A stretch of 64,000 bases of DNA. Origin: Opitutales bacterium (lineage in GTDB: Bacteria > Verrucomicrobiota > Verrucomicrobiia > Opitutales > Intestinicryptomonadaceae). The stretch lies in NCBI GenBank assembly GCA_015061945.1, contig SUVP01000005.1, forward strand, positions 1-64,000, in the 5' to 3' direction. The translations under genes were made by a program, and so were the position numbers. Shown here piece by piece: positions 18,878 through 24,874 of this stretch; within the stretch, counting starts at the first letter, position 1; each line of letters starts with the position of its first letter. The notes beneath the pieces are model-generated. The model had not been told where the DNA came from, ran no database searches, and worked only from the letters and a program-made list of their open reading frames with translations.

Positions 18878-19930
18878 ATGAAAGTTATACCAGTAATATT
18901 TGAAATTTGTACCTTCGTGATTCCTCTTTTCGTCGCGTTGATATTTTTGTTGCGTTCAAACGAATCATACAACGAAGCGTACGATTCATCTAAATTTAAA
19001 TTTTTGGGATTATCAAAATCTCAATATCGTTTATTTTTCCGCATAATAGGTTTCGTTTGTTTACTCGTAGGCTTTTTTGCGATATACAGAAATTATTTTT
19101 ATGAGCCAGTTTCAGAATATCAAGAGACAAAGGATTTCTGGAAAGATGTAGAAGGCAAGGTTGATCCGTTCCGTTCGGCAATGCTCTTGGGGGCAGCGAT
19201 TGCAATTCCCGCAAGAATGGGGTCGTCGCGTTTCCCTGGTAAGCCGTTGGCGTTCCTCGGTGGCAAGGCTGTTTTGCAACACGTTTACGACAACTGTATG
19301 AAATGCGAGCTCGCTGAGAAAGTTGTCATCTTGACCGATAGTATCGAGATTCTCGAATTTGCCGATAAAATCGGGGCTCCGGCGATATCGACATCGCCAA
19401 ATTGTCAATCTGGTACAGAACGAATAATCGAAGCTTTTGAAGAAATTAACGCCGATTTTGTAGTGAATGTTCAAGGCGATGAACCATTTATCTCGCCAAA
19501 GTTGGTCGATTCAATTATCGAAGTTGGCAAAAATTCAAACGTAGAACTCGTAACGGCAATATCAAAAATAACCGACGAACAAGCTTTGATTAACCCAAAT
19601 ATTGTAAAAGTTTTACGAGATAATGATGGTGCAGGTATATATTTTAGCCGTACGCCATTGCCATATATTCGTGGAGAAGCGAATCCGTCGGAGTGGTTGA
19701 AGCGTTGCGATTATTGGCGTCATATCGGTATTTACGGGTATTCTGCAAAATCGTTGGCTCGGTACGCATCGTTGCCTGTTAGCAAAATGGAAAAGTGCGA
19801 AATGCTCGAACAGCTCCGCTTTATCGCATCTGGATATAAATTTGAACTCGTCGAAACCAACTACACATCAATAGGAATCGACACTCCAGAAGACTTGGCA
19901 GAGGCTGAAGAATTTTTGAAGAAAATATAA
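18878..19930 (+). CDS. kdsB: CMP-Kdo synthetase with an N-terminal membrane domain
   Basis: The C-terminal 245 residues are a CMP-Kdo synthetase (3-deoxy-manno-octulosonate cytidylyltransferase), which activates Kdo for lipid A core assembly. Motifs are IPARMGSSRFPGKPLA, PNCQSGTERI, VVNVQGDEPFI, YFSRTPLPYIRG and HIGIYGY. Unusually, about 100 residues precede it in the same open frame, with two likely transmembrane segments (about residues 4-25 and 53-70). E. coli KdsB is soluble and begins at the IPAR motif. An in-frame ATG at 19181 would give a normal-length enzyme, but neither start has a clear ribosome binding site. The start choice, and so the fusion, is uncertain. kdsD follows with a 1-bp gap. 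Confidence 0.88.
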   Translation: MKVIPVIFEICTFVIPLFVALIFLLRSNESYNEAYDSSKFKFLGLSKSQYRLFFRIIGFVCLLVGFFAIYRNYFYEPVSEYQETKDFWKDVEGKVDPFRSAMLLGAAIAIPARMGSSRFPGKPLAFLGGKAVLQHVYDNCMKCELAEKVVILTDSIEILEFADKIGAPAISTSPNCQSGTERIIEAFEEINADFVVNVQGDEPFISPKLVDSIIEVGKNSNVELVTAISKITDEQALINPNIVKVLRDNDGAGIYFSRTPLPYIRGEANPSEWLKRCDYWRHIGIYGYSAKSLARYASLPVSKMEKCEMLEQLRFIASGYKFELVETNYTSIGIDTPEDLAEAEEFLKKI

Positions 19931-23193: not shown

Positions 23194-23214
23194 AAAATCC
23201 AAGTAAATTTGAGG

Positions 23215-23242
23215 ACGCCCGAAAATATCGGGCGTTTTTTTT
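23215..23242 (+). terminator. intrinsic terminator after the PpiD-like gene
   Basis: ACGCCCGA (23215-23222) pairs perfectly with TCGGGCGT (23228-23235) over a 5-base loop and is followed by a T-run to 23242. Confidence 0.92.
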
Positions 23243-23371
23243 AATTAGTAATATGGAAATACGATATATAAAAATAGATTTTTTTCAAAAAAAGCTTGTA
23301 AAGGATAACAATTATAAGATTGTAAGAGAATGGCGATTATTTAAATTGCTAAAATTGAAAGGAAAATAAAA

Positions 23372-23761
23372 ATGCCAAGACCAAAAAAAACAGCAACATC
23401 GGCAGTTGCAGAAAAGAAAACAACAAAAAAAGTAGCAACAAAAAAATGTGCTACTAAAAAGACAGCAAAGAAAACAGCTTCAAAAGTTTGTGCATCAAAA
23501 GCTAAACTCACAAGAGTAATTGCAAAATTTGACGCAGGTTGGGGAAACCAACTTTTCATTCGTGGACTCGGTGGAAGCCTCGACTGGCAAAAGGGAATAG
23601 CGATGCAAAATATCAGCGAAGACGAATGGCTCTGGGAACAACTCGTGCCATGTGGAACTGTTGCTTTCAAGATCTTGTTGAACGACGAAAATTGGAGCGA
23701 AGGCGAAGATTTCGTAGTGTCGGCAGGCGATACAGTAATTTGCCGTCCATCGTTTCAATAA
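23372..23761 (+). CDS. lysine-rich tail fused to a glycan-binding-like domain
   Basis: A 129-residue cytoplasmic protein (no signal peptide) of two parts. Residues 1-47 are almost only Lys, Ala, Thr and Cys with KK-A-T repeats, like histone H1 tails. Residues about 48-129 (AKFDAGWGNQLFIRGLGGSLDWQKGIAMQNISEDEW and FKILLNDENWSEGEDF) follow the strand and aromatic pattern of CBM20/CBM48-type starch- or glycogen-binding modules. I do not recognise a named family for the combination. It could tether DNA, RNA or an acidic polymer to glycogen, or sense it; this is inference. GAAAGGA at 23357-23363 supports the ATG. It is monocistronic, with terminators on both sides, just upstream of a sugar transporter. 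Confidence 0.7.
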   Translation: MPRPKKTATSAVAEKKTTKKVATKKCATKKTAKKTASKVCASKAKLTRVIAKFDAGWGNQLFIRGLGGSLDWQKGIAMQNISEDEWLWEQLVPCGTVAFKILLNDENWSEGEDFVVSAGDTVICRPSFQ

Positions 23762-23770
23762 AAAAATCTA

Positions 23771-23794
23771 ACCGCGAGAAATCGCGGTTTTTTT
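23771..23794 (+). terminator. intrinsic terminator after the lysine-tail gene
   Basis: ACCGCGA (23771-23777) pairs with TCGCGGT (23782-23788) over a GAAA loop, followed by a T-run. Confidence 0.92.
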
Positions 23795-23863: not shown

Positions 23864-24874
23864 ATGGTAACAATTACATCTTATCCAATCGCAGTTATAA
23901 TGTGCATAATCACAATGATTTGCTGGGGCTCGTGGGGCAATACCCAAAAGCTCGCAAGTAAAGAATGGAAATTCCAACTATTCTATTGGGACTACACATT
24001 AGGTATTTTAATATTTTCGCTTCTCTTGGCGTTTACAATGGGTTCTTGCGGAGAAGGCGGAAGAAGCTTTTTGGCAGACCTCGCACAAGCCGATTCAAAA
24101 TGGCTGATGTCGCCATTGATTGGCGGTATAATCTTTAATGCGTCAAATATCTTGCTTGTTATCGCTATCGATATAGCAGGTCTTGCGGTGGCATTCCCAG
24201 TAGGGATAGGTCTTGCACTTGTACTCGGTGTTATCACGACATACGCAGTGCGTCCAGAAGGCGATCCAGTTATGTTGGGTGCAGGTGTTGCGTTTATATG
24301 CGTAGCAATTATTTTAGACGCAATCGCATTTAAGCGACTTGGCGGACGTGGAGCGACAGTCAAAGGTGTTGTCGTATCGGCATTGGCAGGTATCTTGATG
24401 GGCTTTTTCTACAGCTTTGTTGCCGACGCAATGGGCAAAATCGAAGTTCAACCAACAGGTGTTGTTCTCGAAGCTGGCAAACTTTCACCATACACAGCAA
24501 TGGTAATTTTTGCTACAGGTATACTTGTATCGAACTTTGTATTTAATACATTGGCGATGAAATTCCCAGTTGGCGGTGGCAAGAGTGTATCATACTCATC
24601 TTATTTCTCAGACGGCAATATGCGTTTGCACTTGATTGGTATGCTCGGTGGATCAATTTGGTGCTTGGGAACAAGCTTTAGCTTTATCTCATCAAGTGCG
24701 GCAGGTGCAGCACTCGCATACGGGCTCGGACAAGGTGCGACAATGGTATCGGCATTTTGGGGCGTATTCGTATGGAAAGAATTTAAGGGTGCACCAAAGG
24801 GCACAAATATGTTGCTCGGTTTGATGTTCTTGTTCTTCTTTGTAGGGCTCGCAATATTGGTCGCTGCAAAATAA
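23864..24874 (+). CDS. GRP-family sugar transporter
   Basis: A 336-residue membrane protein with about ten helices and no signal peptide. The first helix is followed by the characteristic MICWGSWGNTQKLASKEWKFQLFYWDY. Later stretches, GLAVAFPVGIGLALVLGVITTY and KFPVGGGKSVSYSSYF, fit the glucose/ribose porter (GRP, DMT superfamily) group. These carry monosaccharides by proton or sodium coupling. It has its own candidate promoter, an AGAAAGG ribosome binding site and a strong terminator, so it appears to be regulated alone. The substrate is not readable. Its place beside a glycan-binding-like protein hints at hexose metabolism. Confidence 0.82.
   Translation: MVTITSYPIAVIMCIITMICWGSWGNTQKLASKEWKFQLFYWDYTLGILIFSLLLAFTMGSCGEGGRSFLADLAQADSKWLMSPLIGGIIFNASNILLVIAIDIAGLAVAFPVGIGLALVLGVITTYAVRPEGDPVMLGAGVAFICVAIILDAIAFKRLGGRGATVKGVVVSALAGILMGFFYSFVADAMGKIEVQPTGVVLEAGKLSPYTAMVIFATGILVSNFVFNTLAMKFPVGGGKSVSYSSYFSDGNMRLHLIGMLGGSIWCLGTSFSFISSSAAGAALAYGLGQGATMVSAFWGVFVWKEFKGAPKGTNMLLGLMFLFFFVGLAILVAAK

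Follow-up and report, generated by a model that had tools for sequence, protein, structure and literature searches.

What function might be served by a small protein in which a lysine-rich, histone-H1-like tail is joined to a domain resembling those that bind starch and glycogen? This question is raised by a gene for a 129-aa protein at positions 23372–23761 (+) of the window, the 64-kb stretch of Opitutales DNA analysed here. The gene is conserved in relatives, and its reading frame, coordinates and composition agreed with the first-pass annotation, made from the letters alone, which had described a KK-A-T lysine tail followed by a CBM20/48-like domain. The product consists of MPRPKKTATSAVAEKKTTKKVATKKCATKKTAKKTASKVCASKAK and then a domain of 85 residues. 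A Shine-Dalgarno-like AAAGGA (23358–23363, +) lies 9 bases 5' of the ATG, and AAAGGA or AAAGG is found at similar spacing in most relatives of the same genus or family. On the upstream side, the intrinsic terminator of a SurA/PpiD-like gene (23211–23239, +; 12-pair stem and T-run) separates the transcription units, and a second one (23770–23789, +; 8-pair stem and T-run) immediately 3' of the 129-aa gene precedes a transporter gene starting at 23864. Having its own Shine-Dalgarno sequence and terminators on both flanks, the 129-aa frame is a real, stand-alone gene. The first-pass annotation had allowed for the tail being a mis-annotated start; this was ruled out, as the stretch from the upstream stop codon to residue 40 contains a single in-frame ATG, GTG or TTG, namely the ATG at 23372, and most relatives have their start region at an equal position. 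As had been noted before, no signal peptide was evident, nor was any transmembrane segment, so the protein should be cytosolic, as glycogen is. No catalytic Pfam or NCBIfam family scored above its cut-off in the 129-aa chain, which consists of tail and beta-sandwich only; NCBIfam also matched the full protein to RutB, but at 19 bits (E 8e-4) where the cut-off is 378, and this match was dismissed as compositional.

To the domain (codons 45–129, 23504–23758, +) a CBM20-type alpha-glucan-binding fold could be assigned by structure prediction. Modelled alone with AlphaFold2 it gave a beta-sandwich with a pLDDT of 96.9, for which the best Foldseek match was the CBM20 domain of the mammalian glycogen receptor STBD1 in complex with maltotetraose (E 2.2e-4, TMq 0.82), ahead of the starch-binding domains of beta-amylase, glucoamylase and CGTase; 4yee and 1z0m, of the AMPK beta CBM48/glycogen-binding domain type, were also among the matches. 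VIA yielded Z 11.8 (1.9 Å, 84 residues) to the CBM20 domain of a CGTase and Z 11.3 to that of STBD1, with a range of Z 10.9–11.8 to the CBM20 domains of CGTases, maltotetraohydrolases and glucoamylases. All Pfam matches of the window protein, X25 among them, were sub-threshold: its domain had no match to PF00686 (CBM_20) at E ≤ 1 and did not reach the gathering cut-off, and among 18 family members two matched PF00686 weakly (best E 0.007), some also matching AMPK1_CBM below threshold. A chain of homologues bridges this gap. A Tenacibaculum protein carries an alpha-amylase catalytic domain and, at its C-terminus, a copy of the same domain with 43% identity to that of the window; this amylase-linked copy was the only relative passing the Pfam CBM_20 cut-off (31.0 vs 23.3 bits), and it also matches the solved CBM20 of a maltotetraohydrolase. 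Among relatives attached to an enzyme, the nearest to the domain is thus an alpha-amylase's starch-binding domain. Although the window protein lies below the Pfam cut-off, the CBM20/48 relation proposed at first reading is confirmed by predicted fold and homologues together, with CBM20 at the top of the fold search, and homology lends good support to alpha-glucan binding. Assignment to CBM69 (AmyP/MalS), for which a strand topology different from that of CBM20/48 has been reported (PMC10223318), was also weighed; the model matched CBM20 chains at Z ~11 and CBM69 was absent among the matches listed. The domain has a conserved motif of its own, G[WFY]GNxLxxRGxGxxLxW. A search of plasmid records for the domain yielded one distant copy, close to the N-terminus of an alpha/beta-hydrolase-fold protein encoded on an actinomycete plasmid (Kitasatospora indigofera, NZ_CP108209.1); given this occurrence the ligand cannot be read from the fold alone, and the ligand range of the domain may be wider than alpha-glucan.

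The predicted glucan site was mapped by profile alignment to the CGTase E domain, the letters being checked against the PDB. Since the hhalign probability for the single-sequence window domain against the CGTase E domain was low (14–23%), the match to CBM20 rests on the fold search and the motif. W72 (23585–23587, +), K100 (23669–23671, +) and W108 (23693–23695, +) aligned to W616, K651 and W662 of CGTase, its CBM20 site-1 residues. A second Opitutales family allowed a comparison: its members, of ~340–620 aa, have two predicted N-terminal transmembrane helices, a coiled-coil/acidic linker (net charge −8 to −62 over 150 aa) and a C-terminal CBM20-like domain (for example positions 292–1773 of locus L002 in the window's own genome), and in some genera this membrane-anchored paralogue is the sole form. 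W72 is tryptophan in 80/80 tailed proteins and 9/16 membrane paralogues, K100 is lysine in 80/80 and 4/16, and W108 is tryptophan in 78/80 (tyrosine in two chlamydial members) and 2/16 (Fisher p 1e-6 to 6e-13), whereas all 16 paralogues retain the fold-type residues R64, N104 and D105. The loci were collected with the motif around residues 56–65, so that conservation of that motif is biased; W72, K100 and W108 lie outside it. As judged from these alignments, selection acts on the glucan site of the tailed form, and the sugar-site residues of the membrane-anchored paralogue are mostly decayed.

The tail (codons 1–44, 23372–23503, +; beginning KKTATSAVAEKKTTKKVATKKCATKKTAKK...) is composed of Lys/Ala/Thr and is predicted to be disordered, its residues 1–43/44 having a pLDDT of 42–55 in the full-length AlphaFold2 model against ~95 for residues 45–129. 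With 16 K/R and one D/E, residues 1–46 have a net charge of +15, a value reached by none of 16,281 46-residue stretches from 37 long open reading frames of the same 64-kb window, where the maximum was +13. Lysine-rich tails are present in nearly all Opitutales relatives; among 68 Opitutales-type tails the median length was 66, with 27% lysine and a net charge of +15 (range +5 to +44). Competibacter tails are longer and A/P/K-rich (median net +15, one at −4), while two chlamydial tails are short or weakly basic (+4 and +10). PAKKA-type motifs occur in 18/80 tails, and among family members there were NCBIfam matches to the histone-H1-like DNA-binding model hist_H1_lk_Burk (two) and to Hc2 (one). 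Among tailed relatives the tail is far more variable than the domain in length and charge, suggesting that selection acts chiefly on the domain. By analogy, we infer DNA as the partner of the tail. Ribosomal protein L17 of the same genome (locus L003, 1096–1653) bears a C-terminal histone-H1-like tail, KKATAKKTATKKATKK (KKATAKK), and owing to this resemblance RNA is a possible partner too.

The tailed protein proved to belong to an order-wide family. A family match was found in 44 of the 54 nearest genomes, almost all with a K-rich tail. In an order-wide sample the domain was present in 195/226 genomes and the tailed short form, counted by frame length, in 144/226; the latter persists in genomes of 0.7–1.1 Mb. 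Named loci fall in Opitutales/Opitutia and include Coraliomargarita, Geminisphaera and gut MAGs. Beyond the order, the family was rare in the rest of the class (2 of ~118 genomes sampled); it was found in 29/40 genomes of the order of Ca. Competibacter and kin, and in 15/68 genomes from the order to which a Parachlamydia-labelled MAG belongs. Competibacter are glycogen-accumulating organisms rather than polyphosphate accumulators (PMC9041414), so that this second home of the family fits a role in glycogen. The literature searched, which reached few subscription journals, contained no description of a tailed CBM20 family, in keeping with the earlier suggestion of an undescribed protein type; the architecture is apparently that of a glycogen tether. 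Since H1-tailed tethers of storage granules and cytosolic CBM20 proteins are both already known, the tailed protein is best regarded as a variant and not as a categorically new system. The architecture given by the first-pass annotation thus stood, and the order-wide family, its occurrence in Competibacter and the membrane-anchored paralogue were absent from that picture.

In line with a glycogen ligand, the genome of the window encodes a GlgA-type glycogen (starch) synthase and the branching enzyme GlgB, and 141 of the 144 carriers of the tailed gene have GlgA and/or GlgB. With GlgA present almost throughout the order, the test of co-occurrence with the tailed gene was uninformative (both 121, tailed gene only 23, GlgA only 74, neither 8; p = 0.23). 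GlgB is kept in 20 of the 23 GlgA-negative carriers, and the three carriers in which these searches detected neither gene may reflect assembly gaps. Among the 81 loci examined there was no conserved operon with glycogen genes, the neighbours being lineage-specific: glgC (ADP-glucose pyrophosphorylase) lies within 6 kb of the gene in only three loci, at distances of 2.4–5.8 kb, all from gut genomes (L040, identified by NCBIfam, and L046 and L049, whose copies cluster with that of L040). In 16 Puniceicoccales/Coraliomargarita-type loci the tailed gene comes immediately after pstB-phoU, in the same orientation, which may link it to phosphate starvation and points as easily to phosphate or polyphosphate; this neighbourhood is limited to one set of loci and is not found in the genus of the window. 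In ten Competibacter-type loci, the next gene, on the opposite strand, codes for a protoporphyrinogen-oxidase-like FAD protein.

The closest functional parallels are found among proteins that place storage granules. PhaF, PhaM and AlgP have H1-like tails by which they bind DNA and place storage granules (PMC9239181, PMC13052382, PMC3556143); loss of PhaM or AlgP leads to fewer, larger granules and loss of PhaF to clumped ones (PMC3556143, PMC9239181, PMC13052382). By analogy, the tailed CBM20 protein may be the glycogen counterpart of PhaF and PhaM on PHA granules and of AlgP on polyphosphate granules. Like PhaF and PhaM it is one small protein that combines a (here predicted) storage-polymer-binding part with a disordered, K/A/P-rich H1-like tail, occurs together with a carbon store and is conserved without an enzyme activity of its own. 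In contrast, their polymer is PHA and not glycogen, their binding part is an amphipathic helix or phasin where a CBM20 beta-sandwich is predicted here, their tail is C-terminal and not N-terminal, and the sequences are unrelated. AlgP of Pseudomonas aeruginosa shares the KPAA/KKAA-type disordered tail, and it has a nucleoid association and the storage-granule role proposed here, but its granule is polyphosphate, its globular part is helical, its tail is much longer and it has no CBM. The protein also resembles STBD1, the source of the top structural match, in being a non-enzymatic intracellular CBM20 protein with a C-terminal CBM20 and a long flexible N-terminal part. A conserved tryptophan of STBD1, W293, is required for glucan binding (PMC4076837). 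Unlike the tailed protein, STBD1 is membrane-anchored, acts with autophagy and is without an H1-like tail; its layout is that of the Opitutales membrane paralogue, in which, however, the sugar site is decayed. With the CBM20 domains of CGTases, maltotetraohydrolases and glucoamylases the window domain shares the predicted fold and the site-1 residues, and its nearest enzyme-linked relative is an amylase CBM20, but these are appendages of secreted enzymes, whereas the window domain is shorter, has its own motif, scores below the Pfam CBM_20 threshold and stands alone in the cytosol. The AMPK beta CBM48/glycogen-binding domain has a related fold and a cytosolic glycogen-targeting role such as is proposed here, but is part of a kinase complex and matched less well in structure than CBM20 did. 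Chlamydial Hc1/Hc2 and the Burkholderia H1-like proteins, on whose NCBIfam models some family members score, share the lysine-rich H1-like composition, but these tail or DNA-binding proteins lack any domain for glycan binding.

We therefore consider at about even odds (probability roughly 0.5) that the tailed protein acts in the cytosol as an adaptor, binding glycogen with its domain and tying it to the nucleoid with its tail. The proposal builds on a conserved gene with a two-part architecture, a predicted CBM20 fold, a conserved site 1, a disordered cationic tail and the glycogen genes of the host, and it was suggested by the PhaM, PhaF and AlgP precedents and by the fact that the protein amounts to a naturally occurring fusion of a CBM20 with a tail of the DNA-binding type. 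The CBM20-type domain would use site 1 (W72, K100, W108) to grip the outer chains of the glycogen that the cell itself makes, while the flexible polycationic tail would bind a polyanion non-specifically, most likely the chromosome, so that many copies per particle would attach the particle to the nucleoid. In E. coli, where GFP-CBM20 has served as an in vivo glycogen sensor, glycogen displaces the nucleoid and the two are mutually exclusive (PMC12706056). Tethering would counter this exclusion, keep particles apart and so limit their coalescence, and spread the glycogen store to both daughter cells; by this analogy the protein would have a role in positioning and partitioning. The uneven basicity of the tail speaks against a tether: one Competibacter tail, as given above, is net negative, one Opitutales tail is at +5, and the two chlamydial ones are at +4 and +10. 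The link between a polyanion and glycogen that was envisaged at first reading is supported, for alpha-glucan through homology and for DNA through analogy.

The main rival to DNA tethering is an AlgP-like binding of polyphosphate, in which the protein would still be a glycogen-binding adaptor but its tail would hold polyphosphate, or RNA and ribosomes, coupling glycogen to polyphosphate granules or to the translation-active cytoplasm. AlgP itself, which sits on polyphosphate granules with a comparable H1-like tail (PMC9239181), the pstB-phoU neighbourhood and the tail of L17, ribosomes being RNA, all point this way, but the absence of that neighbourhood from the window's genus, the preference of Competibacter for glycogen and the PhaF and PhaM precedents, which favour DNA, make it an unlikely though serious contender. 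A somewhat less probable reading is that of a targeting or regulatory subunit resembling the glycogen-targeting part of AMPK or PP1, with the CBM on glycogen and the tail recruiting or neutralising an acidic protein such as the linker of the membrane paralogue, by which glycogen would be held at the inner membrane. The complementary charges of tail and linker and the STBD1-like layout of the paralogue, with its two predicted transmembrane helices, acidic linker and same C-terminal domain, would suit such an arrangement. However, in reduced genomes and in some families one of the two proteins is present and its counterpart missing, so that they do not form an obligate pair, and the paralogue's own sugar-site residues have decayed.

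That the sugar-binding function has been lost altogether, leaving a nucleoid-compacting H1-like tail on a degenerate CBM20-fold domain with a structural or dimerising role, appears improbable. H1-like proteins of the Hc1/Hc2 type are typical of the PVC superphylum, the window domain falls below every Pfam CBM cut-off, and, to judge from the membrane paralogue, sugar binding can be lost in domains of this fold; yet W72, K100 and W108 are retained in essentially all tailed members and decayed in the paralogue, and it is the tail, not the domain, that varies more in length and charge. Least credible of all is the proposal of the first-pass annotation that the protein regulates the adjacent GRP sugar transporter. 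The two genes are physically adjacent in the window and the neighbour does belong to a transporter family (PF07168, GRP/ureide-permease-like), but a terminator lies between them, the transporter has its own upstream region, and the adjacency recurs in only 3/81 loci, whereas the tailed gene is conserved across the order with many different neighbours.

Bacteria very commonly store glycogen. For PHA and polyphosphate, proteins are known that place the granules on the chromosome, and a conserved fusion of a glycogen-binding-type domain with an H1-like tail provides a concrete candidate for glycogen, which a 2025 review of the positioning of bacterial compartments does not mention (PMC13052382). 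More broadly, and with somewhat less confidence than the tether itself, we suggest that bacteria may own dedicated glycogen-positioning proteins, a tailed CBM20 protein tying glycogen to the nucleoid and a separate membrane-anchored paralogue of CBM20 fold, by which glycogen would be partitioned like PHA or polyphosphate granules; this solution would have arisen in, or been transferred among, Opitutales, Competibacter and a chlamydial lineage. The positioning of glycogen and its sharing at division thereby become directly testable questions, with possible relevance to the glycogen-accumulating organisms of wastewater and to Verrucomicrobiota of the gut, and the domain could be used as a compact cytosolic glycogen tag. 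Elsewhere in the window, the KdsB (CMP-KDO synthetase) gene at 18878–19930 codes for an extra N-terminal stretch of ~105 aa with apparent transmembrane segments, and in four relatives a long form clusters at this position.
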